Positions 6,164 to 39,046 of a stretch of 64,000 nt of DNA are shown piece after piece (positions within the stretch are counted from its first letter, which is position 1; each line of letters starts with the position of its first letter). The DNA comes from Zoogloea sp. (lineage in GTDB: Bacteria; Pseudomonadota; Gammaproteobacteria; Burkholderiales; Rhodocyclaceae), in contig JADJBR010000009.1 in NCBI GenBank assembly GCA_016703645.1, positions 1,313,501 to 1,377,500 of the forward strand. The letters are read 5' to 3'. The position numbers were made by a program, and so were the translations under genes. The notes below the pieces were generated by a model, which was not told where the DNA came from, did not search any database, and worked only from the letters and a program-made list of their open reading frames with translations.

Positions 6164-7240
6164 GTGATCGACCTATCCTTTCTCAGCCCTGGGGCGCGCC
6201 CCCTGATCGGTGTCGACATATCGTCGTCGTCGGTCAAGATGGTCGAGTTGGCCGCCGTCTCCGGGGGAGGATTCCGGGTCGAGCGCTATGCCATCGAAGC
6301 CCTGCCCAGGGACGCCGTGTCCGACGGTAACATCGCCAACCTGGAGGCGGTTTCCGAGGCGATTCGTCGGGGCTGGCGCAGGCTGGGTACCAACACGAAA
6401 TTCGTTGCCCTGGCATTGCCCGCATCCGCGGTGATCACCAAGAAGATCATCCTGCCTGCGGGCCTGCGCGATCAGGAGCTGGAGGTTCAGGTTGAGTCCG
6501 AGGCCAATCAGTACATTCCCTTTGCCCTTGATGAGGTCAATCTCGACTTCCAGGTGGTGGGGCCCGCCGCATCGGGTGCTGACGAGGACGAGGTACTGAT
6601 TGCGGCTTCGCGCAAGGAAAAAGTCGAAGACAGGGTGGCAGCGGCGGAAGCCGCCGGGCTGAAGGCCCTGGTGATGGACGTGGAGTCCTATGCCGCCCTA
6701 TCCGCGTTTGAGCTGGTCCAGGCAGATCTGCCCGATGCCGGGCAGGACAAGATCATTGCCCTCGTGGATGCGGGGGCCAATGTGATGAACGTATCCGTGC
6801 TTCGTAATGGGGTACAGGTGTATGCCCGGGAGCAGGCCTTCGGTGGTTTCCTCCTGACCCAGGACATCATGCGCCATTTCGGCATGTCCCTTGAGGAGGC
6901 CGAGAGCGGCAAGCGTACCGGTTCGCTCCCCGAGAGCTACGAATCGGACCTGTTGCGGCCCTTCATGGACGCCCTGGCGCTTGAAGTGTCGCGTGCCCTC
7001 CAATTCTTCTTTACCTCGACCCAGTTCAACCAGGTGGACCACATCGTTCTCGCCGGTGGCTGTGCTGTCATCCCGGGGCTTGCTGAAACCGTGTCGGGCC
7101 GTACCCAGGTCGATACCCACATCGCCAATCCGTTTGCCCGAATGAGCCTTGGCACCAAGATCCGTCCCAAGAGCCTGTCGGCAGATGCACCGGCCCTCCT
7201 CGTGGCCTGCGGCCTCGCTCTGCGGAGGTTTGATTCGTGA
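6164..7240 (+). CDS. pilM: Type IV pilus assembly protein PilM
   Basis: A 358-residue actin-like ATPase-fold protein of the cytoplasm. It binds the PilN N-terminus and links the pilus motor to the PilNOP alignment subcomplex. The phosphate-1 type loop is IGVDISSSSVKMVEL near residues 15-29; the later segments ALVDAGANVMNVSVLRNG and IVLAGGCAVIPGLAE are the other nucleotide-fold motifs. Translation starts at GTG 6164 with AGGAC just upstream; no ATG fits the conserved N-terminus. It is the first gene of the pilMNOPQ operon and its stop overlaps the pilN start. Confidence 0.97.
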   Translation: MIDLSFLSPGARPLIGVDISSSSVKMVELAAVSGGGFRVERYAIEALPRDAVSDGNIANLEAVSEAIRRGWRRLGTNTKFVALALPASAVITKKIILPAGLRDQELEVQVESEANQYIPFALDEVNLDFQVVGPAASGADEDEVLIAASRKEKVEDRVAAAEAAGLKALVMDVESYAALSAFELVQADLPDAGQDKIIALVDAGANVMNVSVLRNGVQVYAREQAFGGFLLTQDIMRHFGMSLEEAESGKRTGSLPESYESDLLRPFMDALALEVSRALQFFFTSTQFNQVDHIVLAGGCAVIPGLAETVSGRTQVDTHIANPFARMSLGTKIRPKSLSADAPALLVACGLALRRFDS

Positions 7241-9043: not shown

Positions 9044-11217
9044 AAATGAGACGTTGTAGCTTCACGTTGGGCGCATTGGCCTTGGTGGCGGTACTGGGAT
9101 GGATGGCCCCGGCTACGTCGGCGCTCGCTCAGCCCGCTCAGCTTGCCGAGCCCGCCGGCAACCGGATCGAAAAAATGGTTGCTGCCGAGCAGGGGGGCAG
9201 TATTGTTCTCAAGCTGACCATGGCACAGCCACTGAGCGCCGCCCCGGGCAGTTTCAGCGTGGCCAATCCGGCGCGGATTGCCTTTGACTTTCCGGATACC
9301 GCAAACGGACTCGGTCGGAATAGCCAGGTTCTCAACACCGGTGACCTGCGTAGCGTGAATATCGTGCAGGTCGGGGATCGAACCCGGCTGGTGTTGAACC
9401 TTTCCCGGGTCTATCCCTATGAGACACGGCTTGAGGATCGCGACGTCTTCATTACGCTGGCATCCGGACCGTTCAAGGAAGCCACCGGGATGGTTCCCCA
9501 ATCAACCCAATTCGCACCGGCGGCTTCCGGCCCGAACGAGAAGCACGCCATCCGTGACGTGAATTTCCGCCGCGGAAAGGATGGCGAGGGGCGTCTGATC
9601 GTCGATCTGTCTGATCCCAATGCCGGCATCGATATTCGTCAGCAAGGTACCAGCCTGATTGTCGACTTCCTCAAGACCGATGTCCCCGAGCAGCTTCGCC
9701 GCAAGCTCGATGTGGTGGATTTCGGTACCCCCGTGTCCTCTGTGGTCACCCAGGCCCAGGGGGGGAACGTGCGCATGACCGTAACGCCCCGTGGTCAGTG
9801 GGAGCACAACGCCTACCAGAGCGACAATCAGTTCGTGCTTGAAGTGAAGCCGGTCAAGGAAGACCCGAACAAGCTGGTGCAGGGGGCAGGCAAGGCACGT
9901 TTTGGTGGAGAGAAGCTGTCTCTCAACTTCCAGAACATTGACGTGCGCTCGGTGCTCCAGGTGATTGCCGATTTCACCAATTTCAACATCATCACCAGCG
10001 ATTCCGTCCAGGGCAACCTGACCCTGCGCTTGAAAGACGTCCCCTGGGATCAGGCTCTGGACATCATCCTGCAGGCCCGCGGGCTCGATCTGCGCAAGAA
10101 CGGCAACGTTATCTGGATCGCTCCCCGCGACGAGCTTGCTGCGCGCGAGAAGCTCGATCTGGAGTCCAAGGCTCAGATCGGCGATCTTGAGCCCCTCCGC
10201 ACGGAGAGTTTCCAGATCAACTACCACAAGGCCAAGAGCGTTGCGGAGTTCCTGAAGAGCAAGGACCAAAGCGTGCTGTCCAAGCGCGGAAGCGTGGTGC
10301 CCGACGAGCGTTCCAACAAGATCTTCGTCAACGATGTCGCCTCGCGCCTGGAAGAGTTGCGCCGGCTCATTGCGGAGATCGACGTGGAGGTTCGGCAGGT
10401 TCTGATCGAAGCGCAAATCGTCGAGGCGACCGATACCTTCACCCGCAACCTCGGGGTGAGGCTCGGCTTCGGCGCCAAGACCGGCGGTTTGCTCGGCAAG
10501 ACCGATGGCGGGGTCTCTGTCTACCGCAACACCTTCGGGTCGGGCGCCCTGACGTCGACGGGTTACCAGGCGGGGCAGATATCCACGGTGCCCAACTTCA
10601 CCGATTCCCTGGCGGTGAACCTGCCTGCTTCGACCATCAACGGCAAACAGGCGGGCGCGTTCTCGCTGGCCCTCTGGAACAGTGCGGCCACCCGCTTCAT
10701 CGACATGGAAGTCTCTGCTCTCGAGGCAGATGGCCGAGGTAAGGTTGTCTCCCGGCCCCGCGTGATGACAGCCGACAAGGTCGAAGCGATCATCGAGCAG
10801 GGTACCGAAGTGCCCTTCCAGACCCAGGGTGGTGGAACAACTGCGCCGACGGTGTCCTTCAAGAAGGCCAACCTGGCGCTCAAGGTCAAGCCGCAGATCA
10901 CTCCTGACGGCAAGGTGATGATGAGCATCGAGGTCAACAAGGACCAGCCACGCTATGATCGTCCGGTGGCGAACGGCAATGTCCCCATCGATACCAAGCA
11001 TGTGAAGACCGAAGTCGTGGTGGAGAATGGTGGAACCATCGTGATTGGCGGGATCTACACGCAGGATGTGTCCAACAATACGGTTAAGATTCCGCTCCTG
11101 GGTGACATCCCCGTGCTCGGTTACCTGTTCCGCAGCAACGAGCGGACCGACAACAAGACCGAACTGCTCATCTTCATTACGCCCCGCATCATCAACGATC
11201 AGCTAGGTTTGCGCTGA
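9040..11217 (+). CDS. pilQ: Type IV pilus secretin PilQ
   Basis: A 725-residue outer-membrane secretin through which the pilus passes. It has an N-terminal signal peptide (ending near SALAQ), AMIN-type beta domains that bind peptidoglycan (around residues 35-270), an STN/N0 domain (LSLNFQNIDVRSVLQVIADF), an N1/KH-like domain and the C-terminal secretin core (VEAIIEQGTEVPFQ, VENGGTIVIGGIY, PLLGDIPVLGYLF). I chose the ATG at 9040 because it overlaps the pilP stop (ATGA) and precedes a proper signal peptide; an in-frame ATG 60 bases upstream lies inside pilP. Confidence 0.97.
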   Translation: MKMRRCSFTLGALALVAVLGWMAPATSALAQPAQLAEPAGNRIEKMVAAEQGGSIVLKLTMAQPLSAAPGSFSVANPARIAFDFPDTANGLGRNSQVLNTGDLRSVNIVQVGDRTRLVLNLSRVYPYETRLEDRDVFITLASGPFKEATGMVPQSTQFAPAASGPNEKHAIRDVNFRRGKDGEGRLIVDLSDPNAGIDIRQQGTSLIVDFLKTDVPEQLRRKLDVVDFGTPVSSVVTQAQGGNVRMTVTPRGQWEHNAYQSDNQFVLEVKPVKEDPNKLVQGAGKARFGGEKLSLNFQNIDVRSVLQVIADFTNFNIITSDSVQGNLTLRLKDVPWDQALDIILQARGLDLRKNGNVIWIAPRDELAAREKLDLESKAQIGDLEPLRTESFQINYHKAKSVAEFLKSKDQSVLSKRGSVVPDERSNKIFVNDVASRLEELRRLIAEIDVEVRQVLIEAQIVEATDTFTRNLGVRLGFGAKTGGLLGKTDGGVSVYRNTFGSGALTSTGYQAGQISTVPNFTDSLAVNLPASTINGKQAGAFSLALWNSAATRFIDMEVSALEADGRGKVVSRPRVMTADKVEAIIEQGTEVPFQTQGGGTTAPTVSFKKANLALKVKPQITPDGKVMMSIEVNKDQPRYDRPVANGNVPIDTKHVKTEVVVENGGTIVIGGIYTQDVSNNTVKIPLLGDIPVLGYLFRSNERTDNKTELLIFITPRIINDQLGLR

Positions 11218-26829: not shown

Positions 26830-28660
26830 ATGTGTGGCATCGTTACCGCCATTGCCCGTCGCAACATCGTTCCCGTGCTGCTCGAGGGCCTGCGCAAGCT
26901 CGAATACCGGGGCTATGACTCCGCCGGCCTCGCCGTGCTCAAGGACGGCAAGTTGCAGCGCCTGCGCGCCGTCGGCCGCGTCGCCGAGCTCGCCGCCCAG
27001 GCCGATGCCACTCACCTGAGCGCCGAGATCGGCATCGCCCACACCCGCTGGGCCACCCACGGTGTGCCCTCCGAGCGCAATGCCCACCCCCACATCTCCG
27101 CCGGCCTCGCCGTGGTGCATAACGGCATCATCGAAAACTTCGAAGAGCTGCGCACCCAACTGCGCGCCAAGGGCTACGAATTCACCTCCGAGACCGACAC
27201 CGAGGCCATCGCCCACCTGCTCCACGACACCCTCAAGACCACCCCCGATCTCTTCGAGGCCGTGCGCATCACCCTTGGGCAACTCATCGGCGCCTACGCC
27301 ATCGGCGTGGTGAGCGAAGCCGAACCCAACCGCACCATCGTCGCCCGCAAGGGCTCGCCCCCTGCTGCTGGGCATTGGCGAAGACGGCCACTACGCCGCC
27401 TCCGACACCGCCGCCCTGCTGCAGGTCACCCGCAAGGTGGTGTACCTGGAAGACGGCGACGTGGCCGAGCTCACCCTCGACGGCTACCGCATCACCCTTG
27501 CCGACGGCACCCCCGTCGAGCGCCCGGTGAACATCTCCAGCCTGTCGGCCGACGCTGTCGAACTGGGCAAATACCGCCACTACATGCAAAAGGAGATCTT
27601 CGAGCAGCCCCAGGCCCTGGGCAACACCCTCGAAATCATCGCCGGTGGCGGCGGCATCTCCCCCCAGCTCTTCGGTGCAGACGCCGTCGGCCTCTTCGGC
27701 GCCACCCGCCGCGTCCTCATCCTCGCCTGCGGCACCAGCTACCACGCCGGCCTCGTCGCCCGCTACTGGATCGAAGCCGTCGCCAAGCTCCAGTGCACCG
27801 TCGAGATCGCCAGCGAATACCGCTACCGCGAATCCGTGCCCGACCCCGACACCCTGGTCGTCGTCATCTCCCAATCGGGCGAAACCGCCGACACCCTGGC
27901 CGCCCTCAAGTTTGCCAAGGGCCTGGGCATGACCAAGACCCTGGCCATCTGCAACGTGCCCGAGTCCGCCATCGTCCGCGAAACCGCCCTGCGCTTCGTC
28001 ACCCGCGCCGGCCCCGAGATCGGCGTCGCCTCCACCAAGGCCTTCACCACCCAGCTTGCCGCCCTGGCGCTCCTCACCCTGGCCCTCGCCAAGGTCAATG
28101 GCCGCCTCAGCGAACAGGCCGAAGCCGAACACCTCACCCAGCTCCGCCACCTCCCCGTGGCCGTCGCCAAGGTCGTCGAGCTCGAACCCGAGATCGAACG
28201 CTGGGCCCAGCGCTTCGCCAACAAGCAGCACGCCCTCTTCCTGGGCCGGGGCATGCACTACCCCATCGCCCTCGAAGGCGCCCTCAAGCTCAAGGAAATC
28301 TCCTACATCCACGCCGAAGCCTACCCCGCCGGCGAGCTCAAGCACGGCCCCCTGGCCCTGGTGGACAAGGACATGCCCGTCATCTCCGTGGCCCCCAACG
28401 ACAGCCTGCTCGAAAAGCTCAAGAGCAACCTGCAGGAAGTGAAGGCCCGCGGCGGCGAACTCTACGTATTCGCCGACGCCGGCAGCGAGATCCCCGAATC
28501 CGAAGGCGTGCACATCCTGCACCTGCCCGAACACTACGGCATGCTCTCCCCCATCCTCCACGTCATCCCCCTGCAACTGCTCAGCTACCACGCTGCGCTG
28601 GTGAAGGGTACGGATGTGGACAAGCCGCGGAATCTGGCGAAGAGTGTGACGGTGGAGTGA
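26830..28660 (+). CDS. glmS: Glutamine-fructose-6-phosphate aminotransferase, interrupted by a +1 frameshift
   Basis: GlmS makes glucosamine-6-phosphate from fructose-6-phosphate and glutamine. The amidotransferase half ([12 protein letters not shown] with catalytic Cys after Met; [18 protein letters not shown]) reads in one frame to about 27357, where the frame breaks. The rest ([22 protein letters not shown], then two SIS domains with [28 protein letters not shown] and [17 protein letters not shown], ending [11 protein letters not shown]) continues in the next frame to 28660. Removing one C from the run of five at 27358-27362 restores a 609-residue protein, the normal family length. Since glmS is normally essential, a sequencing or assembly error is the likeliest cause. 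The undisturbed frames alone would be annotated as 26830-28710 and 27437-28660. Confidence 0.93.
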
Positions 28661-28690
28661 TCGGGCGGCGGCTGCAGGCCATGTCTGCTT
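28628..28690 (+). other. Predicted attTn7 neighbourhood at the glmS 3' end
   Basis: Tn7-type elements recognise the conserved codons at the end of glmS (here encoding LAKSVTVE) and insert about 25 bases past the stop (established knowledge). The accessory region follows directly. I see no TGTGGG Tn7 terminal sequence and no tns genes, so this marks a site, not an element. Confidence 0.45.
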
Positions 28691-28748
28691 GTCGTCTTCG
28701 CCTTGCCTGATGCGCTGAGCGGGTCAGGCTGGAATCAAGGTTTAGTTT

Positions 28749-28849: not shown

Positions 28850-28972
28850 CTGCTAAGCAGTGGTTGCGGACTCTCTGTGAGGGTCTCAAACGCCAGCGTG
28901 TGTACAAAATGGGACTATTTCTAAGCTGCCTGAGCCCGGTGCGACATCCGTCTTCAACGCGCTGCTTAGCAG
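28850..28972. promoter_or_regulatory. Two CTGCT-N-AGCAG palindromes upstream of the island operon
   Basis: CTGCTAAGCAG at 28850-28860 and CTGCTTAGCAG at 28962-28972 are 11-base odd palindromes 112 bases apart. They lie in the non-coding stretch before the first island gene. A one-mismatch copy, CTGCTTAGCTG, is at 32214-32224, just after the last gene. A further hairpin, GGAGCA-GGG-TGCTCC (29005-29019), sits directly before the first start codon. They look like dimer binding sites; the ribbon-helix-helix-like protein encoded next is a natural candidate binder (inference). Confidence 0.4.
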
Positions 28973-29023
28973 CTACTGGCTAACTTTAAGCAACGAGCGT
29001 CCACGGAGCAGGGTGCTCCTCTC

Positions 29024-29281
29024 ATGTGGTATCATGTTAACGTGAATACATCAAAGCCGCCTGAACGTAAGCCGCGCGCCACAACCACTGGCACGCTTGT
29101 TGGCACGCGCTTTCAACCTGACCTGCTAGAGGCGGTCGACCTCTGGAGAAAGGCGCAGCCCGATCTTCCCACGCGGCCAGAAGCCGTTCGGCGACTTGTT
29201 GAACTTGGCATGCGAGACGCAGATAGCACGCTTGGTCACTCGGTGCCGTCTGCCTTCAAATCGGGTGGGACAGGTTTATGA
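29024..29281 (+). CDS. Small ribbon-helix-helix-like protein, first gene of island operon
   Basis: An 85-residue basic protein with an N-terminal tail rich in Lys/Arg/Pro/Thr. The strand-helix-helix pattern TGTLVGTRFQPDLLEAVDLWRK then RPEAVRRLVELGM resembles CopG/Arc-type DNA-binding proteins. Its stop overlaps the start of the methyltransferase gene (ATGA), so it belongs to the same operon and may autoregulate it. Start choice is open: ATG 29024 has a weak ribosome site within a hairpin. GTG 29042 would give 79 residues and lies 7 bases after a TATCAT hexamer (29030-29035), which would make a leaderless message. Base composition is lower in GC than in glmS. Confidence 0.65.
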   Translation: MWYHVNVNTSKPPERKPRATTTGTLVGTRFQPDLLEAVDLWRKAQPDLPTRPEAVRRLVELGMRDADSTLGHSVPSAFKSGGTGL

Positions 29282-30177
29282 AGCTGCTCAGCCCACTCAG
29301 GTATCCCGGCGGCAAGGCCGGGCTTGCCCCGTTCCTCACCGATGTTCTGGACCTCAACGGCATCCGAGGAGTTGATTACTTCGAGCCATATGCAGGCGGG
29401 GCAGGCGCTGCCCTGGCGCTGCTTGCCGATGGGGTTGTGCGACGCATCTCCATCAACGACGCTGACTTCCGAATCTATTCGTTCTGGCGAACAGTCCTCA
29501 ATGAGCCTGAGTGGTTCGTTGACAGGATCATGACTGCGAAGCTTGACTTGCGGGAGTGGAAGGAACTGCGTGAGACATGCCTCTCTCCGGATGGCAAGGA
29601 GATGAGGGACGTTGGCTTCGCGGCCTTCTACATGAACCGCTGCAACCGATCTGGCGTTCTCAGCAGCGGCCCGATTGGCGGATACGAGCAAGCCGGTGAA
29701 TGGCGGTTGGACGTTCGCTTCACCAAGCCTGCTCTTGCTGAACGCGTACTCGAGATCGCCAAACTGCGCGAGCAGATCGACGTTAGCAACTTGGATGCAG
29801 TCGTGTTCTTGAAGGAGAGGCTACCGAGTGGCAATGGTCGCAAGAACGCATTCGTGTATTTGGATCCCCCCTATGTCGAGAAGGGCCAGCGTCTATATCT
29901 CAACGCCTACGAGCCCGATGATCATGGGGAAATCTCGAGGTACATGGCTCAGCAGAAGATTCTGCCTTGGGTGATGTCCTATGACGACGCAGAGCTCGTG
30001 AGGCGTCTGTACAAGAATCAGCGGATTGCGCTGTTGCCAATTAACTACTCGCTTCAGGAGAAGCGTGCGACCAATGAATTGGTCATTGCGCCGCATCGAA
30101 TGCGTCTGCCTCGAACGATGAGAATCGGCGCCAGAAAATTCGAGTTCAAAGAGATCACCCCAAGGAACATAGCGTGA
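29278..30177 (+). CDS. D12-class (Dam-like) DNA adenine N6-methyltransferase
   Basis: A 299-residue protein with the alpha-class adenine methyltransferase layout: RYPGGK (residues 8-13, motif X), FEPYAGGAG (35-43, S-adenosylmethionine motif I), the conserved AFYMNRCNRSGVL block (116-128) and the catalytic DPPY (196-199, motif IV). These enzymes methylate adenine in short sequence motifs, either as orphan methylases or as the protective half of restriction systems. The gene overlaps its upstream neighbour by 4 bases and overlaps the next gene by 4. It differs from E. coli Dam in sequence, so GATC specificity should not be assumed. Confidence 0.88.
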   Translation: MKLLSPLRYPGGKAGLAPFLTDVLDLNGIRGVDYFEPYAGGAGAALALLADGVVRRISINDADFRIYSFWRTVLNEPEWFVDRIMTAKLDLREWKELRETCLSPDGKEMRDVGFAAFYMNRCNRSGVLSSGPIGGYEQAGEWRLDVRFTKPALAERVLEIAKLREQIDVSNLDAVVFLKERLPSGNGRKNAFVYLDPPYVEKGQRLYLNAYEPDDHGEISRYMAQQKILPWVMSYDDAELVRRLYKNQRIALLPINYSLQEKRATNELVIAPHRMRLPRTMRIGARKFEFKEITPRNIA

Positions 30178-31277
30178 ACAAAGCTCTCAACGTAGTTCCG
30201 ACCAAAGTCTCGGATTTGCACTTTGATTATGAGAATCCACGCTTAGCGGAGTACGGGATTACCAAAGCCACCCCTGAGGAAGAGATTCTCATGATTCTTT
30301 GGGAGGCGATGGATGTTCGAGAGTTGGTTCAGTCCATTTCTGCCAGCGGATTCTTCCCTCATGAGGCTTTGATCGTCGCCAAAGAAGATGGTAGGGACGT
30401 CGTCATAGAGGGGAACCGGCGTCTGGCAGCCGTGAAGGTGCTGCTGCGGGGTGACAAAAATAAGAATTTCGGCTGGCCCGTCCCCGCGCTGTCCAACGAT
30501 GCGCGTGCGAACCTTGAAACCGTTCCAACGATCTTCTTGACACGGGAAGAGGCTTGGCGTTTCCTTGGGTTCAAGCACGTCAATGGGCCAGCGAAATGGA
30601 GTAGCTATGCTAAGGCCTCTTACATCGCAACCGTTCATAAGACGTTTGGCATTCCCTTGGCTGATATCGCCAACCAGATCGGCGACCGACACAATACAGT
30701 TCAACGTCTGTATCGTGGTTTGATGGTTCTCGAGCAGGCGGAGCGCGAGGGCGTGTACAACCGAGAGAACGTTTTCAGGACTCGACTGGCGTTTTCGCAC
30801 CTTTACACCGGCCTGGACTACGAAGGCATCAGCAATTTCGTGAGCGTCGCGCCAAAGGAGAAGGAGACCGAGTCTCCCGTGCCGAAGGAGAAGCTCAAGG
30901 AGCTCGGAGAACTCTGCGTTTGGCTTTATGGCGATCGCTCGCAGAATCGCCCGCCCGTAGTTGAGACGCAGAACCCGCACCTGCGGATGCTAAATGCGGT
31001 AGTGGCGAATCGGGAAGCTGTTGCGGCCTTGCGAGCTGGTGAGGATCTGAATAAGTCTTACGAGATTTCTCGCCCTGCGGCGTCGGTCTTCGAGGAGGCG
31101 TTGTTGTCGGCAAAGCGTGAGTTGACTACCGCTCGGGCTGCGCTCTCTTCCGGGTACGACAACTCTCACGAGCTGCTGAAGATTGCAGGGTCTATCGCAA
31201 ACATGGCTGATGATCTCTACACCGAGATGGAACGAAAGGCGAACCCCAACCAGAAGAAGACCCGTATCGCCGAGTAG
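30174..31277 (+). CDS. ParB-like protein with N-terminal ParB/Srx-fold domain and HTH
   Basis: A 367-residue protein starting at GTG 30174 inside the stop of the methyltransferase gene. Residues about 10-95 match the ParB N-terminal domain (VSDLHFDYENPRLAEYG, then VVIEGNRRLAAVKVL, where E79-x-x-R82-R83 corresponds to the ParB nucleotide-binding GERR box). Residues about 159-182 (GIPLADIANQIGDRHNTVQR) look like a helix-turn-helix. The C-terminal third is helical and charged. ParB folds act as CTPase switches in partition and occur in nucleases and defence proteins such as DndB, SspE and the DUF262 family (established knowledge). No parA is present, so a partition role is unlikely; a role with the methylase and nuclease is inferred. 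Confidence 0.75.
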   Translation: MNKALNVVPTKVSDLHFDYENPRLAEYGITKATPEEEILMILWEAMDVRELVQSISASGFFPHEALIVAKEDGRDVVIEGNRRLAAVKVLLRGDKNKNFGWPVPALSNDARANLETVPTIFLTREEAWRFLGFKHVNGPAKWSSYAKASYIATVHKTFGIPLADIANQIGDRHNTVQRLYRGLMVLEQAEREGVYNRENVFRTRLAFSHLYTGLDYEGISNFVSVAPKEKETESPVPKEKLKELGELCVWLYGDRSQNRPPVVETQNPHLRMLNAVVANREAVAALRAGEDLNKSYEISRPAASVFEEALLSAKRELTTARAALSSGYDNSHELLKIAGSIANMADDLYTEMERKANPNQKKTRIAE

Positions 31278-31279
31278 GT

Positions 31280-32212
31280 ATGTTTAAGCTTCCTGCACCC
31301 CCGTCTCCTCGGGCGGACATACATGAACTAGCGGACTTCGCCGAACTCTTGGCGTTGCAGAACGATTCAGTATCGGCACGCGAGATCCTTGCCTATCTGG
31401 GTCGTGCTGGCGACAACGAGTACAACGAGGGCGTGGACGACGAGGACGACGTCAACGCAAATGCAATGGACGATGTGATGATCGAGATTGATCGTCGCAG
31501 TAGGTCATGCGTCGGCGGTTACCCATTCGAGCTGGACCTGAAGGGAACGGTTCTGCGGCACGATCGCGGGGATGCTTCTGAACGCGCTGTCGTCTACCGA
31601 TATCTGCTACTCAGCACGCGACTCAACATGACGACGGACAAGGTGCAGGCGAACATCGATGGCACCGCTCTTCTGGAGGAGATCTCGGCCGCAGTACTGC
31701 GCTGCTATCTCGGCTACGACCGCGCCCGATCCGTGGTCTTTGGCACAGCAACCGGAGGTACGTTCCGCGAAAAGGTCAATGCGCTCTGTGAAGCACTCGG
31801 GGAAGGAGGCTGCTTTGAAGCCTTGGACCCTGGTCCCGTCAATGCCAACGACGACCGACTGGACGCTGCGGCTTGGATCCCGTTCTCAGACATGCGCCGT
31901 GGAAAACTGATCATCTTCTGCCAATGCAAGACCGGCTCTAGCTGGAAAGAGCACACGACACAGCTTCAGCCCGATGCCTTCATCAAACGGTGGATGAAGC
32001 ATCGCACCTTCCTCGTGCTACCTGTTCGCGCCTTCTGCGTGTCCGAATCGACTTGTCCTAACCATTGGGGTGGTCTCGTCAGCTATGCAGGTCTTTTGTT
32101 TGATCGGTTGAGGCTCGTGGACTTTCTCGACCGTATCGAACCCGATCTGCTCGAGCGCATTCGGACCTGGAACGCGGCAGCAGCTACGGTCGCTGCCAAG
32201 GCCATTAACTGA
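31280..32212 (+). CDS. Unknown protein with probable PD-(D/E)XK nuclease core
   Basis: A 310-residue protein beginning two bases after the ParB-like gene. The N-terminal part is helical with an acidic stretch (about residues 44-66). In the middle, DDRLDAAAW (D195) is followed by a strand KLIIFCQCKTG (Q215-x-K217). The D-(about 20)-Q-x-K spacing after a helix containing LLEEISAAVL fits the PD-(D/E)XK restriction-nuclease fold, in which Gln can replace the acidic residue. I recognise no named family. As the last gene of the operon with an adenine methyltransferase it is the natural candidate for the restricting enzyme. Function is inference. Confidence 0.6.
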   Translation: MFKLPAPPSPRADIHELADFAELLALQNDSVSAREILAYLGRAGDNEYNEGVDDEDDVNANAMDDVMIEIDRRSRSCVGGYPFELDLKGTVLRHDRGDASERAVVYRYLLLSTRLNMTTDKVQANIDGTALLEEISAAVLRCYLGYDRARSVVFGTATGGTFREKVNALCEALGEGGCFEALDPGPVNANDDRLDAAAWIPFSDMRRGKLIIFCQCKTGSSWKEHTTQLQPDAFIKRWMKHRTFLVLPVRAFCVSESTCPNHWGGLVSYAGLLFDRLRLVDFLDRIEPDLLERIRTWNAAAATVAAKAIN

Positions 32213-32817
32213 TCTGCTTAGCTGATCACAACTCGGAACGCCGGTGCAGCTCAACTGGGCGAGCATCTCCTCTAAAGTCCTGGGTGATCTGTCACTTCAT
32301 TGCTAGTCATCGAATTGTGAGCGCGAAGTTGAATGCGCCGGTATGCAGAATCCCAACGGGTCAATTGTCCGGGCACACTATCGGCAGACCCACACCGATT
32401 AACATTCCTCGGAGATTTCAACTGCGAGGCCTGCTTGCTGCTCGCGATTTGAGCGGACCGAAAGTGTGACTAGAGTCGGCTCAGCCTGGGTGCCCCGCGC
32501 TGGCGAAGTCAGTGAGGATTGGATGGCAGCTACAAACAATCTAGTCTAAGCTGATAAGCGGCGGCTTTGGTCGATCACCCGCTGACTCAACACCAGAGGC
32601 AGAGCGCTAAGTCGCTGCCACATCGCGACAAGCGGGCATCCATCTCGCAGCACTCCATCCCCTCATCAGGTGGCATGAGCTACGCCCCCACCGCGAGGCA
32701 TACCCGATCTGCCCTTCCCCGACCCCGTTTCCACACACCGGGATCGAGCAGCAGTATCAGAAATGAATAGCGGCGCGAAGACCTCCTCCGCCTGAAAGCC
32801 GGAAGACGTAGGTCCGC
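32213..32817. other. 605-base stretch with no supportable gene
   Basis: This gap between the nuclease-like gene and the XRE gene contains only short open frames of 61-67 codons (32284-32469 and 32567-32770). These have no ribosome site I trust, no hydrophobic segment and no recognisable motif. A partial palindrome CTGCTTAGCTG sits at its left end. It may be decayed sequence within the accessory region. Confidence 0.5.
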
Positions 32818-33477: not shown

Positions 33478-35682
33478 CTAACCCGCCAAAGCCACCCCCT
33501 TACCCCGTGCCCCATGCAGCTTCCTGTAGCTGTCAATCAGCCGCTGATGCCTGTCCAGCCCTTCCAGTTTCATGCTCGTCGGAGTCAGGCCGTGGAAGCG
33601 TACGCTGCCGTCCACTGAGCCCAGCACCGCGTCCATCCGCGGGTTGCCAAACATGCGGCGGAAGTTGGTTTCGTAGTCGTCCATTTCCAGCTCATCGTCC
33701 AGCAGCACTTCCAGCACCACGTTCAGGGCTTGGTAGAAGAGCCCGCGCTCGACGGTGTTTTCGTTGTATTGCAGGAAGGCTTCCACCTGTTCCTTCGCGG
33801 CTTCAAATTGCTGCAAGGCCAGATTGATCAGCAGTTTCAATTCCAGGATGGTCAGCTGGCCCCAGGCGGTGTTTTCGTCAAACTCGATGCCGATCAGGGT
33901 GATGATGTCGGTGTAATCGTCCAGTTCGCTGTCTTCCAGGCGTTCCAGCAGGGCTTCCAGGCGGGCGTCGTCGAGGCGGTGCAGGTTGAGGATGTCCTTG
34001 CGGAACAGCAGGGCCTTGTTGGTGTTGTCCCAGATCAGGTCTTCCACCGGGTAGACCTCGGAATAGCCCGGCACCAGGATGCGGCAGGCGGTGGCGCCGA
34101 GCTGGTCATAGACCGCCACGTACACTTCCTTGCCCATGTCTTCGAGAATGCCGAACAGGGTGGCGGCCTCCATGGCATTGGAGTTTTCTCCGTGGCCGGA
34201 AAAGTCCCATTCAACAAATTCATGATCGGCCCTGGCGCTGAAGAAGCGCCACGACACCACGCCGCTGGAGTCGATGAAGTGCTCCACAAAGTTGTTCGGC
34301 TCGGTAACGGCGTTGCTTTCAAAGGTGGGGCGGGGCAGGTCGTTGAGGCCTTCAAAGCTGCGCCCCTGCAGCAGTTCGGTCAGGCTGCGCTCCAGCGCCA
34401 CTTCCAGGCTGGGGTGCGCGCCAAAGGACGCAAACACGCCGCCGGTGCGCGGGTTCATCAGGGTGACGCACATCACCGGATACTGCCCGCCCAGCGATGC
34501 ATCCTTCACCAGCACCGGAAAGCCCTGCTTTTCCAGCGCGTCGATGCCGGCCAGGATGCCGGGGTATTTGGCCAGCACGTCCGGCGGCACGTCGGGCAGG
34601 GCGATTTCGCCTTCGAGGATTTCGCGCTTCACCGCCCGCTCGAAGATCTCCGACAGGCATTGCACCTGGGCTTCGACCAGGGTGTTGCCGGCGCTCATGC
34701 CATTGCTGAGGAAGAGGTTGTCGATCAGGTTGGACGGGAAATACACCACCTCACCGTCCGACTGGCGCACATAGGGCAGCGAGCAGATGCCGCGCTTTAC
34801 GTTGCCGGAGTTGGTGTCGTACAGGTGCGAGCCACGCAATTCGCCATCGGGGTTGTAGATTGCCAGGCAGTGGGCGTCGAGAATGCCCGCCGGCAGCGCA
34901 TCCCTGGCGCCGGGCTTGAACCAGCGTTCGTCCGGGTAATGCACGAACGGCGCGTTGGCAATATCTTCACCCCAATACTGGTCGTTGTAGAAGTGATTGC
35001 AATTGAGCCGCTCGATATATTCGCCCAGGGCCGAGGCCAATGCGCTTTCCTTGGTGGAGCCCTTGCCATTGGTAAAGCACATGGGCGAATGGGCATCGCG
35101 GATATGCAATGACCACACATTGGGCACCAGATTGCGCCAGGAGGCGATTTCAATCTTGATGCCCAGGCCCGCCAGCACGCCCGACATATTGGCGATGGTC
35201 TGCTCCAGGGGCAGATCCTTGCCCGCAATATAGGTGCTCGCTGCTGAGTCCGGATTGAGGGTCAGCAGGGCCTGGGCGTCAGCATCGAGGTTGTCCACCT
35301 CTTCGATCACGAATTCGGGCCCGGTCTGCACCACCTTCTTTACCGTGCAGCGCTCGATGGAACGCAGAATGCCCTGCCGGTCTGCGGCGGAGATGTCCGC
35401 GGGCAATTCCACCTGGATCTTGAAGATCTGCTGGTAGCGGTTTTCCGGGTCGACGATATTGTTCTGCGACAGGCGGATGTTGTCGGTGGGGATATTGCGG
35501 GTTTCGCAGTACAGCTTCACAAAATAAGCCGCACACAAGGCCGATGAAGCCAGAAAGTAATCGAACGGCCCCGGTGCCGAGCCATCGCCCTTATAGCGGA
35601 TGGGCTGATCGGCCACCACCGTGAAGTCGTCGAACTTGGCTTCGAGGCGAAGCTTGTCCAGAAAATTGACCTTGATTTCCAT
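33478..35682 (-). CDS. ycaO: OsmC-domain/YcaO-domain fusion protein
   Basis: A 734-residue protein. Residues about 1-125 are OsmC-like, with the peroxidatic-type Cys50 in FLASSALCAAYF. Residues about 140-560 are a YcaO domain with the ATP-binding pattern STKESALASALGEYIERL and EAQVQCLSEIFERAVKREI. The remainder is helical. YcaO proteins use ATP to activate backbone amides; in E. coli the non-cyclodehydratase YcaO is linked to RimO-dependent methylthiolation of ribosomal protein S12. There is no precursor peptide or dehydrogenase gene next door, so this is probably not an azole biosynthesis gene. I chose ATG 35682 because AGGA lies at proper distance upstream; an in-frame ATG at 35724 is possible. 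Confidence 0.9.
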   Translation of the reverse strand: MEIKVNFLDKLRLEAKFDDFTVVADQPIRYKGDGSAPGPFDYFLASSALCAAYFVKLYCETRNIPTDNIRLSQNNIVDPENRYQQIFKIQVELPADISAADRQGILRSIERCTVKKVVQTGPEFVIEEVDNLDADAQALLTLNPDSAASTYIAGKDLPLEQTIANMSGVLAGLGIKIEIASWRNLVPNVWSLHIRDAHSPMCFTNGKGSTKESALASALGEYIERLNCNHFYNDQYWGEDIANAPFVHYPDERWFKPGARDALPAGILDAHCLAIYNPDGELRGSHLYDTNSGNVKRGICSLPYVRQSDGEVVYFPSNLIDNLFLSNGMSAGNTLVEAQVQCLSEIFERAVKREILEGEIALPDVPPDVLAKYPGILAGIDALEKQGFPVLVKDASLGGQYPVMCVTLMNPRTGGVFASFGAHPSLEVALERSLTELLQGRSFEGLNDLPRPTFESNAVTEPNNFVEHFIDSSGVVSWRFFSARADHEFVEWDFSGHGENSNAMEAATLFGILEDMGKEVYVAVYDQLGATACRILVPGYSEVYPVEDLIWDNTNKALLFRKDILNLHRLDDARLEALLERLEDSELDDYTDIITLIGIEFDENTAWGQLTILELKLLINLALQQFEAAKEQVEAFLQYNENTVERGLFYQALNVVLEVLLDDELEMDDYETNFRRMFGNPRMDAVLGSVDGSVRFHGLTPTSMKLEGLDRHQRLIDSYRKLHGARGKGVALAG

Positions 35683-35796
35683 GGGGGAATCCTGAAATGG
35701 CGTCGAATGCGCGGTGGCCGCCATTATCGCCGTTTCCCGGCGAAACGCCCGGCCGGGTCAGCGCATCGCATCCTGTGAGCGTCGACGCGACTGGCG

Positions 35797-35826
35797 TTTC
35801 AAATGGTACGATGGATAATCTACAAT
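35797..35826 (+). promoter_or_regulatory. Predicted promoter of the Xre/RES module
   Basis: TTTCAA (35797-35802) and TACAAT (35821-35826) with an 18-base spacer precede the antitoxin start at 35854. GATAATC, an odd palindrome (35814-35820), lies between them and could be part of an autoregulatory operator. Prediction only. Confidence 0.35.
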
Positions 35827-35853
35827 GAGACTTTCGGAAGGCGGAGCACGAGC

Positions 35854-36363
35854 ATGACCACGACCACATCCCCGTTGGTGTCCAAGCCTGGAAGCCCGCG
35901 CGCAGCGCGAGCGAAGGCCGGCACGGCGTGTTTCATGATCGACAGCGTTCCGATCTCCCGTGCCGATCCCGAGCAGCGGATCGAGATATTGCGTTCGGGC
36001 TTCCCGGCCGACATCGTGACCGAGCTGGCCAGCAGCATGCGGTGGTCGCGCGATCACGCGTTGGCGGTCTTTCGTGTCAAACGGTCCACCGCAATGCGCA
36101 AGATCAAGACCAAGGCCCGCCTGGCGACGGATGAGTCCGAACGCATTCTGTCGGTCATCGACCTCATCGAGCAGGTGCAGTGCATGGTCGAGCGGTCGGG
36201 TGATCCGAGCGGGTTCGACGCAGCGGCGTGGCTTGCCCAATGGCTTGAACGCGCGAATCCGGCGCTGGCGGGAAAGTGCCCCGCAGACTATCTCGACACC
36301 AACGAGGGCATCGGGATCGTGCGTCGCTTGCTCGCCCAGATGGAGAGTGGAGCCTACGCGTGA
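35854..36363 (+). CDS. Xre/MbcA/ParS-type antitoxin
   Basis: A 169-residue antitoxin of the family that neutralises RES toxins. The middle has an Xre-like HTH (WSRDHALAVFRVKRSTAMRKIKTKARLATDESERIL). The C-terminus has the MbcA/ParS toxin-binding domain (FDAAAWLAQWLERANPALAGKCPADYLDTNEGIGIVRRLLAQMESGAYA in outline). I chose ATG 35854, with GCGGAG eight bases upstream; an in-frame start at 35803 would lie upstream of the predicted promoter. The toxin gene overlaps its stop (GTGA), the normal layout. Confidence 0.88.
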   Translation: MTTTTSPLVSKPGSPRAARAKAGTACFMIDSVPISRADPEQRIEILRSGFPADIVTELASSMRWSRDHALAVFRVKRSTAMRKIKTKARLATDESERILSVIDLIEQVQCMVERSGDPSGFDAAAWLAQWLERANPALAGKCPADYLDTNEGIGIVRRLLAQMESGAYA

Positions 36364-36845
36364 CTGTCCTGGCGTGGCGGATTGGAACGGACACACCAGC
36401 CTACACGGCAGACGATCTGAGCGGAGCGGGCGCGAAGATCACCGGCGGACGCTGGAATCGCGACGGCGTGCCCGTCATCTACACGGCATCGTCGCCGGCT
36501 TTGGCCTGCCTGGAAACCGTCGTGCATCTGGTGGCTGGCGCCTTGCCCTTGAACCGTTACCTGGTGCGCATCGATATTCCTGACGAGCTGTTTGCCAGAC
36601 GTTTGCAGTTTGAGGACATCGCACCGGGGGCGGCGCGCGTGGGCTGGGACGCCGAGCCCCCCGGGCAGGTGAGTCTGGAACTTGGCGGCGCCTGGCTGGC
36701 CGCGTGCCGTTCTGCCATCCTGGAGGTGCCTTCGGTGATTGTGCCGGAAGATCGCAATTTTCTGATCAATCCGGCCCATCCCGATGCGGCGGCACTGATG
36801 GCCACGAAGTTGCGGCGCTTTGAGTACGACCGCCGCTTGAAATAG
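36360..36845 (+). CDS. RES-domain toxin
   Basis: A 161-residue toxin of the RES family, members of which degrade or transfer ADP-ribose from NAD+ (for example MbcT, ParT). The conserved Arg is R31 in GGRWNRDG, the conserved Glu is E52 in ALACLETVVH, and the C-terminal VPEDRNFLINPAHP block is typical. It starts with GTG 36360 overlapping the antitoxin stop. With the antitoxin it forms a complete, apparently intact type II module next to an SGNH/metacaspase gene. Confidence 0.9.
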   Translation: MTVLAWRIGTDTPAYTADDLSGAGAKITGGRWNRDGVPVIYTASSPALACLETVVHLVAGALPLNRYLVRIDIPDELFARRLQFEDIAPGAARVGWDAEPPGQVSLELGGAWLAACRSAILEVPSVIVPEDRNFLINPAHPDAAALMATKLRRFEYDRRLK

Positions 36846-37029: not shown

Positions 37030-38874
37030 TCAGATGGTGAACGGCCCCTGCGCTGCCAGCATTTCCGGTTCCCGCCCGATCAGGGTGAGGCGCGGGGTCT
37101 GCTCGGGGGGCATGTTGCTGACGATGCGTTCGGCAAGGGTCTTCCAGTCGCCCTGGAAGCGTCCTTCGTCCCACACCCGTAGCAGCTCCTGGGTGAAGCG
37201 GCCATTGCCGATGCCGTCCCCGGATTCCTGGTTGTCCTGGCAGCCCGCCACCAGGAGCACCGGGCCCTTGAGGGGCATGTTCAGCTCGCGGGTCAGCAGG
37301 CGTTCGTCGGGGCCGCGGCTCTGGCGGCCGAGGCGGGCGTACAACTCGCGATTCATGCGGAAGGCCTTGCCGGCAATGTCGAGGGGCAGCAGGCGGGTGC
37401 GGGGGGCGGCCGGGTTGGCCTGATCGGCGGCCGAGAGAGTGCGGCGGGCGGCGCGCGACACGGTGCCGCTGTGGCAGCAGTCGGAGATCATCACGATGCG
37501 CACGTCGTCGGCAAAGTGCGACCACAGCTCGTAAAGCTCGTCGTCGATCAGCATGCCGTCGAAGAGGCACAGGGTTTCGTCGGCGCCGTCGTCCTCGTCG
37601 GAATTGAAGTCGGGCACCTGGCTGCCGTGGCCTGCGTAGGTGAACATGAACACATCGCCGGCCTTGAGTTCGGCGGCGGCTGCGGCGATGGTGTTGCGCA
37701 CCTCGTCGCGCGTGGCCTGCTCGTCGAGCAGCACGGTGCGCTTTTCAAAGCCGCGTTCGGCGGCGATGCGCTCCATGTCTTCGGCGTCGAAGTGGCAGCC
37801 GTACAGGGGGGCGTCAGAGCCATAGTGGGCCGGGTCGATATGGTTGACGCCCACATGCAGGGACCAGCCGCGGCGGGTGGGGGCCGCTGCCGCGCCGAGC
37901 CCGCGGGAGCGGGGGGCGCGGGCGGTGGCATGGGCTTTCCGGATGGCCTCCTCGAAGCGGTCGGCGACCCGGCCGTAACCCGGGTTCTTGGGGTGCAGCT
38001 CGTCATGCCAGGAGCCGAGGGTGTTGCCCACGGCGCCCCGGGCATCCACGTGGATGACGCGGTCGCCAAAGAGCGCCGTGAGCTGGCGCAGGCGCTCATT
38101 GAAGCGGTCGATCATGTGGGCGGCGATGGCGCGCTGCACGCTGCCGTCGGTGATGCCGCGCGATTCCATGGGCTTGCCCAGCCATTTGCCGGCATTGGGG
38201 ATCACGTAATCGTAGCCGTGGCAGATGGTCACCACGCCGGGCTCGGCCTCCACCTCGCGCAGCACGCGCTCGTACATGGCCAGCGCATGGTCGAGCAGCT
38301 TCTCGAAGCTGGGCAGCACGTGCGCGGCGGGGGACAGGGCGGGGTCGAAGTCGCGCAGGTGGGCGCGCAGGTTGCCACCGCCCAGGGCGTCATTGCCGCC
38401 AGCCGAGAGCAGGAAGATCGAGGCACCGGCCTCGCGGATGGCCTCGATGTACTCGTGCTCCTTGAGCATGTTCTCGAGGGTGTCGCCAGCGGCATCCAGG
38501 CTGCGCACGGCGAAGCCCTTTTCATAGAGCTGGTCGATGGTGTCGTCGAGGACGATGGGGTACTGGAACCAGGAGTCGCCCTCGGACACCAGGATGGGTC
38601 CGTCATAGCCGTCTGCCACCATGCCGTCGAAGCGGGCCCGGCGGCGCAGGCGGGCGATGCCGTTGGCAAAGTTGAGGGCCGCATCGCTGCGTGCCCGGGC
38701 TGCGGCGGGGTCGGCCGGCAGCACGATGGTTTCCGGGTTGAGCTGCAGGCGGGGGTTGAACAGGCCGGAGCCTTCCTCGTCGATCAGAAAGTAGCGCGCA
38801 AGATCCTTTTCCGGGATCGACAGATCGGACAGTTTCTTATTGAGTTCGGCGGGGGTGATGCGGGTGTCGGTCAT
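37030..38874 (-). CDS. SGNH-hydrolase / metacaspase fusion protein
   Basis: A 614-residue protein with two catalytic domains. Residues about 90-312 are SGNH/GDSL hydrolase-like: SEGDSW with nucleophile S101, GGND (159-162), and D291-x-x-H294 in WHDELHPKN. Residues about 337-612 are a caspase-fold peptidase of the metacaspase type: catalytic H416 in YAGHGSQ and C467 in DCCHSG, plus acidic DETLCLFDG. The linker (about 319-336) is Arg-rich (RAPRSRG, PTRRG), and metacaspases cleave after Arg or Lys, so the protein may process itself. No signal peptide is seen. ATG 38874 follows GGAGG at correct spacing; an in-frame start at 38958 is unlikely. Role is unknown; defence or regulated death is one possibility. 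Confidence 0.85.
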   Translation of the reverse strand: MTDTRITPAELNKKLSDLSIPEKDLARYFLIDEEGSGLFNPRLQLNPETIVLPADPAAARARSDAALNFANGIARLRRRARFDGMVADGYDGPILVSEGDSWFQYPIVLDDTIDQLYEKGFAVRSLDAAGDTLENMLKEHEYIEAIREAGASIFLLSAGGNDALGGGNLRAHLRDFDPALSPAAHVLPSFEKLLDHALAMYERVLREVEAEPGVVTICHGYDYVIPNAGKWLGKPMESRGITDGSVQRAIAAHMIDRFNERLRQLTALFGDRVIHVDARGAVGNTLGSWHDELHPKNPGYGRVADRFEEAIRKAHATARAPRSRGLGAAAAPTRRGWSLHVGVNHIDPAHYGSDAPLYGCHFDAEDMERIAAERGFEKRTVLLDEQATRDEVRNTIAAAAAELKAGDVFMFTYAGHGSQVPDFNSDEDDGADETLCLFDGMLIDDELYELWSHFADDVRIVMISDCCHSGTVSRAARRTLSAADQANPAAPRTRLLPLDIAGKAFRMNRELYARLGRQSRGPDERLLTRELNMPLKGPVLLVAGCQDNQESGDGIGNGRFTQELLRVWDEGRFQGDWKTLAERIVSNMPPEQTPRLTLIGREPEMLAAQGPFTI

Positions 38875-39046
38875 GATCAGGCCTCCAGCAGGGGTGTTGT
38901 CTCGATGGGAAACGAAGCCCGTGCGAACCGGGCAGATGAAAGGCCGTCGCAGGGGCACACGGAACGATCCAGCATAGACATGACATTACGCTACGTCCAC
39001 GCAGCTCTGTGTGCCCCTGGCCCCTGTCGACCAGATCCTCACCCGC

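Follow-up and report, generated by a model that had tools for sequence, protein, structure and literature searches.

Downstream of glmS, the 64,000-nucleotide stretch of Zoogloea sp. DNA analysed in this work (the window, part of a 4.99-Mb genome) carries four tightly packed genes on the plus strand, which encode a small ribbon-helix-helix (RHH)-like regulator, a D12-class N6-adenine DNA methyltransferase (MTase), a ParB-like protein and a predicted PD-(D/E)XK nuclease, here called NUC (Table 1). We consider it probable that the core of this operon is a horizontally acquired, restriction-modification-like defence cassette, in which the ParB-like protein acts as a switch licensing NUC on unmarked DNA. 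The MTase would mark the host's own target sites, and the ParB-like protein and NUC would together make up the restriction part: the ParB-like protein would bind DNA at unmarked target sites and, under the control of its nucleotide state, would recruit or license NUC, which would then cut the unmarked DNA and may protect the cell from phages. An earlier note on this DNA had described the four genes as one coupled unit. Open reading frame (ORF) analysis confirmed the ORF positions, the 4-nt overlaps between the RHH and MTase genes and between the MTase and ParB-like genes, and the 2-nt spacing between the ParB-like and NUC genes. The motifs that the earlier note had named were also found: RYPGGK, FEPYAGGAG and DPPY in the MTase, EGNRR at residues 79-83 of the ParB-like protein, and D195 and Q215-x-K217 in NUC.

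Homologous loci (numbered L) were collected by a scan with an alignment of 15 ParB sequences and by other searches, and profiles made for this work were used to annotate the resulting 178 stretches, one of which is that of the window. Since the matches taken from the scan were the best 80 of 144 confirmed in viral contigs and the best 80 of 423 in bacterial and archaeal contigs, i.e. those nearest to the window, the counts lean towards the window's relatives. NUC adjoined ParB on the same strand for 172 of the 186 ParB ORFs, with a median gap of -1 nt. In the non-redundant set (near-copies removed at 85% ParB identity, ORFs of at least 250 aa) NUC directly followed ParB in 140 of 149 homologues, and 131 of these 140 pairs had an MTase gene no more than 2.5 kb away, 125 of them within 300 bp. 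The layouts of the 125 were D12 upstream and co-directional (47, the type of the window), C5 downstream and convergent (31), N4/N6 downstream and co-directional (21), D12 downstream and convergent (15), D12 downstream and co-directional (10) and C5 downstream and co-directional (1). ParB and NUC distances were correlated in the four layouts tested (r 0.84-0.96; 44, 30, 20 and 15 sets). ParB-NUC pairs occur in 18 bacterial phyla, as judged from 70 loci with a usable organism name. This spread, together with the median gap found in the 172 loci, argues that the ParB-NUC arrangement is not due to chance.

The exceptions were few. Nine ParB homologues had no NUC; six of them were long (446-520 aa) and lay within 2.5 kb of a D12 gene, which is the layout of the PD-λ-5 system discussed below, and the other three were L154, L177 and L181. 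Nine pairs had no MTase, and five of these were close to an end of the available sequence (L036, L063, L117 and L126 at most 120 bp from a contig end, the second pair of L027 at most 370 bp from the end of its stretch). Searches with NUC itself failed because NUC diverges too fast: tblastn with the window protein gave nothing in annotated phages and one weak plasmid match, and no viral or genome contig matched in scans with NUC peptide patterns. The difficulty was overcome by using ParB as the query. In L144 a NotI-family restriction enzyme (9346-10227, PF12183 3.5e-42) was seen between a D12 MTase gene and a ParB gene whose NUC partner is short or absent; L145 has the same ParB/D12 setting with a NotI-family enzyme at about 9347-10198, assigned by likeness to that of L144.

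In addition to its Pfam family (Table 1), the window MTase matched the PADLOC models PD-Lambda-5_B (PDLC04018; 6.6e-99, residues 3-282) and MTase_II (1.8e-74). Its counterparts in the 123 non-redundant sets were D12 (70), C5 (32) or SPPY-type N4/N6 enzymes (21); the MTase profiles were seeded from the same loci, but Pfam confirmed representatives of each of the three kinds. The catalytic motif was DPPY in 68 of the 70 D12 proteins and SPPY in 20 of the 21 N4/N6 proteins. The SPPY motif stands for N4-methylcytosine (m4C), which is therefore probably the mark of the N4/N6 group; the D12 enzymes would produce N6-methyladenine (m6A) and the HaeIII-like C5 enzymes 5-methylcytosine (m5C). The C5 enzyme of the Wphi copy aligned to M.HaeIII over nearly its full length (1.6e-48), which makes GGCC its probable target. 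Since MTases of the m6A, m5C and probable m4C kinds all occur beside ParB-NUC, the mark most likely blocks recognition and is not read as a signal.

The kind of MTase clustered by ParB clade: by parsimony at least 8 changes are required on the ParB tree of the 123 sets and 9 on the NUC tree, as compared with 44-48 in three shuffles; these counts are approximate, since the trees were quick ones (Shimodaira-Hasegawa-like approximate likelihood ratio test, SH-aLRT; LG+G4) with long branches (warnings for L062 and L094, long branches meeting at L012). The clustering indicates that the pairing with the MTase is long-lived but replaceable. The closest pair with different kinds was L170 (SPPY) and L175 (D12), which share 67% ParB and 57% NUC identity. 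MTase and ParB distances correlated with r 0.84 in the D12-upstream, 0.73 in the N4/N6 and 0.92 in the D12-convergent group. We read these patterns as pointing to a stable ParB-NUC unit with a replaceable MTase.

The AlphaFold2 model of the ParB-like protein (pLDDT 93.8) matched structures of the CTPases ParB, Noc and KorB in the PDB with a best E-value of 3.2e-6, and all 27 matches at E ≤ 0.001 were ParB, Noc, KorB or Spo0J chains. By this structural comparison the protein is predicted to have the ParB/Srx nucleoside triphosphate (NTP)-binding fold. Pfam gave no family above threshold for it, and in PHROG it matched 3694, a family of unknown function (5.2e-70). Each residue of EGNRR is kept in 121 or 122 of 123 sequences. 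The second motif of canonical ParB proteins is ENxQR, and at its place the family has H135-x-N/T-G138...W142...K147. Kaljevic 2025 reports that ParB-type folds can bind CTP, ATP or GTP, and that in such folds the nucleotide is not reliably predictable from sequence. Each of the three could be the nucleotide bound by the modelled protein.

That the last protein of the operon is probably a PD-(D/E)XK nuclease, as the earlier note had proposed, agrees with its predicted structure. In the AlphaFold2 model (built from 86 sequences, mean pLDDT 94.9) helix 128-144, strand 150-153, helix 162-173, strands 196-200 and 210-217, helix 231-238 and strand 249-254 follow each other in an order that, judged by eye, corresponds to a PD-(D/E)XK-like layout. 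The top Foldseek match in the PDB was MspJI (E 0.012, probability 0.97), and the PD-(D/E)XK enzymes MspI and Bse634I and nucleases VC1899, Can2 and Card1 followed further down, interspersed with many chains of no relation. Conservation of the putative active-site residues was high, with D191 and D195 present in all 123 sequences, E22 in 122 and Q215 in 118. The Q215-x-K217 motif of the window was not general: K217 is present in 51 of the 123 copies, 72 have a lysine at alignment position 225, and exactly one of the two is found in 121. The alternation can be explained by two changes on the ParB tree and by a single one on the NUC tree; it thus shows that a lysine is conserved, and not that the two positions were exchanged repeatedly. 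In PHROG, NUC matched 14650 (6.6e-13) and 3984 (1.5e-6), both of unknown function.

A role in defence is suggested by copies in P2-like phages, whose cassettes sit between the portal and replication endonuclease genes (12474III; E. coli 98206). According to Vassallo (2022, PMC9519451), this location holds tin, old and four validated systems. Among 5,426 complete E. coli genomes the cassette was present in 139, of the Wphi type in 103 and of the 12474III type in 36 (most of the query covered), and the Wphi copy is carried by E. coli W. The proteins in the E. coli records seen were annotated 'ParB N-terminal domain-containing protein', 'hypothetical protein' and 'DNA cytosine methyltransferase'. 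The location of these copies in a validated hotspot speaks for the modification-based defence that the earlier note had suggested, and the control or targeting of the nuclease by the ParB-type protein, which was part of the same suggestion, is retained here as a proposal.

Acquisition of the operon was examined by base composition and by comparison with relatives. The GC content of the operon is 0.54-0.58, as against 0.67-0.68 in glmU/glmS. In a comparison with 17 glmS loci (L199-L215) from 16 genomes of the same genus, 16 of the 17 loci lost DNA similarity to the window near the end of glmS, at points from 34 bases before it to 8 bases past it, and two of these loci (L200 and L205) end there with their contig and are uninformative; in L199 the similarity extended 136 bases past the end of glmS. 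In L203 it returned at 33489 after about 270 bases, and this junction looks like an empty site. In the relatives search, which covered 148 other genomes, NUC was present in three; these belong to the family of the window's host but to other genera. The lower GC content and the variable junction directly after glmS would fit acquisition.

The 3' end of glmS is where attTn7-type sites are located. The variable junction (around 28660) resembles such sites. The window glmS is split over two frames (26830-28710 and 27437-28660), the same-genus matches are one open frame of 611-792 aa, and a second copy, on contig C5 of the same genome, is likewise in pieces; the splitting is possibly due to assembly errors.

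The operon resembles type II restriction-modification systems in having an MTase beside a predicted PD-(D/E)XK nuclease. It differs from them in that the restriction part would consist of two proteins, one with an NTP-binding fold, and in that NUC matches no family or model in Pfam, NCBIfam or PADLOC. Several observations weigh against the interpretation given at the outset. The site recognised by the helix-turn-helix (HTH) of a ParB protein is usually longer than the 4 bp typical of HaeIII- and Dam-like MTases, so that it is not obvious how both proteins would recognise one and the same site. In the C5 group the MTase and ParB distances correlated weakly (r 0.26, 30 sets) and the median identity was 67% for the MTases, 33% for ParB and 25% for NUC, from which a tight one-to-one matching of specificities does not follow for this group. 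No MTase was detected for L025, L026, L124 and L137 in spite of at least 2.5 kb of sequence on both sides. Judged by E-value, Foldseek supports the fold of NUC weakly, with no match at 0.001 or better, and a profile search of PDB sequences with NUC returned two chance antibody matches only. Finally, GC content is still lowish, 0.58-0.62, for some 3-4 kb past the operon and therefore does not delimit the insert.

The earlier note had matched the gene set to no named system. For the trio of MTase, ParB-like protein and NUC we likewise found no name, and it has a named cousin. As described in the same paper (Vassallo 2022, PMC9519451), PD-λ-5 consists of a related MTase and a longer ParB-like protein and protects E. 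coli from phages. The likeness extends to a D12 MTase of the same family, to a ParB-like partner with a homologous N-terminal half (PD-Lambda-5_A 1e-17, residues 11-169) and to the association with prophages. In contrast to PD-λ-5, there is no full-length PD-Lambda-5_A here, the match covering positions 15-175 of a 473-position model (models have 428-592 positions). The six long PD-λ-5_A-like homologues that were aligned have a C-terminal part of their own and no adjacent NUC, whereas the shorter window protein comes with a separate nuclease, which departs from the two-gene composition, and the MTase of the ParB-NUC module can also be of the C5 or SPPY type. A PD-λ-5-like pair stands beside a ParB-NUC pair in L165 and L176, and L152 and L153 have a single D12 gene with a PD-λ-5_A-type ParB on one side and a ParB-NUC pair on the other. 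Judged from these comparisons, the module is a sister of PD-λ-5, not PD-λ-5 itself. The C-terminal part of PD-λ-5_A gave no convincing match to a known Pfam domain. The N-terminal half of the ParB-like protein was also matched by PADLOC PDC-M38A (3.1e-17), the second half of which differs in matching other proteins in many genomes, several of them about 2.7 kb from the chromosome start. Our guess for this half is a RecF/ABC-type ATPase; a ParB-NUC fusion was considered and rejected, as the half was not NUC-like in any search made.

A joint reading of these systems, which we draw from the fold and regard as possible but doubtful, is a nucleotide-gated sliding-clamp restriction system, that is, a general sensor with swappable effector and mark. 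The ParB-like protein would load at unmethylated sites, methylation blocking the loading, would spread on foreign DNA like chromosomal ParB, and would license NUC to cut at a distance. In the present module the effector would be a separate PD-(D/E)XK protein, in PD-λ-5 the C-terminal part fused to the sensor, and in PDC-M38A another domain, and the mark might be m6A, m5C or m4C.

An abortive-infection (Abi) or toxin-antitoxin-like action is unlikely. In such a system the MTase would be the antidote, and ParB-NUC would kill the cell once phage takeover or dilution leaves host sites unmethylated. The shared D12 gene of L152 and L153, flanked by both kinds of ParB, could be taken in this sense, and so could the E. 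coli records: two of them have an insertion sequence (IS) inside NUC and an intact MTase, and in a third, seen as a listing row only, the match takes in an extra hypothetical protein; these disruptions are at most a hint of addiction to the MTase. However, no argument can be built on two or three damaged copies, NUC is predicted to be a DNase of the restriction type, and direct immunity and Abi are inseparable by sequence.

Even less probable is a modification-dependent, type IV-like system, where ParB-NUC would cut DNA carrying a foreign mark and the MTase would only regulate or compete. MspJI, the closest structural match of NUC, is a modification-dependent enzyme with its own recognition domain, and the D...Q-x-K arrangement of NUC is presumably the same as the MspJI motif. 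In contrast to MspJI, NUC comes with an MTase, and most of its copies carry the lysine at 225. SspE is a ParB/DUF262-fold protein of modification defence; the literature gives the ParB-type NTP-binding fold also for GmrSD, DndB and DpdB in DNA-modification defence, and DUF262/ParB_N folds for the type IV GmrSD enzymes, of which a weak GmrSD_N match (E 0.16) was seen. The window operon differs from GmrSD in its sub-threshold DUF262 score (PF03235, 12.5 bits against a cut-off of 33.2) and in having no HNH in its four proteins, and from the whole group in its partners, a stand-alone predicted PD-(D/E)XK protein and an MTase; of the seven window proteins scanned with PADLOC, none matched Dnd, Ssp or Dpd. 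Against the type IV-like reading, type IV systems need no MTase, whereas an MTase of one of three kinds is encoded in cis at 131 of the 140 pairs. A partition or maintenance module of mobile DNA with the nuclease as accessory, to which the ParB fold and the occurrence of copies on viral contigs and in records of phages and plasmids could point, is hardly credible in view of the close pairing with nuclease and MTase and the defence-hotspot location; the operon matched no known module for partition or of phage origin, and no ParA was noticed in the ORF lists, which show first residues only and were not followed by a ParA search.

If the restriction-like interpretation is correct, a three-gene defence family in 18 bacterial phyla and in 139 of 5,426 E. 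coli genomes has gone, in the E. coli records seen, under the annotations given above, and the role of many orphan ParB-like proteins and orphan-looking MTases would be explained. It would also give PD-λ-5 a mechanistic frame, as a ParB sensor with an exchangeable effector, and the role of ParB-type switches in immunity would be directly testable in E. coli W with its Wphi copy. The ParB-NUC pair with its three kinds of MTase looks related to restriction systems and is widespread, but we found no name for it: among the papers listed from the open PMC literature (subscription papers, REBASE and supplementary tables being outside the search) none was seen that names a ParB, PD-(D/E)XK and MTase trio, and the searches brought up no functional data on the module.

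Table 1. Genes and palindromic sequences of the window operon (positions are those of the window)
Feature	Position	Strand	Remarks
Small RHH-like regulator	29024..29281	+	85 aa; PHROG 4738, transcriptional repressor, 1.8e-5; no Pfam family
D12-class N6-adenine DNA methyltransferase (modification subunit)	29278..30177	+	299 aa; PF02086 2.8e-16
ParB-like protein	30174..31277	+	367 aa, GTG start; predicted ParB/Srx NTP-binding fold, HTH, helical C-terminal part
NUC, predicted PD-(D/E)XK nuclease	31280..32212	+	310 aa; D191, D195, Q215, K217
Near-palindrome TCATGTTAACGTGA, candidate operator	29032..29045		overlaps RHH start
Palindrome CTGCTAAGCAG	28850..28860		exact CTGCTWAGCAG site
Palindrome CTGCTTAGCAG	28962..28972		second exact copy upstream of operon
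CTGCTTAGCTG	32214..32224		one mismatch to upstream palindromes; directly after NUC stop codon

The earlier note had treated the four genes as one system. This holds for the MTase, ParB-like and NUC genes, which co-occur widely, but not for the RHH gene, which is outside the conserved set because only one clear homologue (L109), besides the window's own, was found among 98 small ORFs upstream of the operons; by this distribution it is a local, accessory add-on. In L015 a different small upstream ORF had a sub-threshold RHH match (0.0015). The RHH protein is probably an autorepressor of the operon, and the alignment with L109 suggests that its true start is probably the GTG at 29042. A palindrome at the RHH start, TCATGTTAACRTGA, is common to the window (29032-29045) and L109 (about 6826-6839, where the counterpart TCATGTTAACATGA is perfect) and is a candidate operator; it, too, speaks for the GTG at 29042 as the start.

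The two exact CTGCTWAGCAG sites upstream of the operon are the only ones in the genome, and a reversed control pattern also occurred twice. Together with the imperfect copy after NUC they bracket the operon, at the outer limits that the earlier note had given for it and where it had mentioned no palindromes; they may be binding sites or mark the boundary of the cassette. Repeated palindromes as a general, parS-like feature of these operons were rejected, as they were found near the operon in 4 loci, the window included, against a mean of 0.75 in single-base shuffles. A sigma-70 scan found no promoter, and terminators were no more frequent than in shuffles. Beyond the operon, the window contains a 748-aa ORF (33478-35724) that by eye resembles an OsmC-YcaO fusion, an Xre antitoxin and RES toxin pair (35803-36845; NCBIfam NF049845 5.5e-25, just below cut-off, and NF049844 8.2e-45), and a 642-aa ORF (37030-38958) in which SGNH-like and caspase-like parts were seen by eye.

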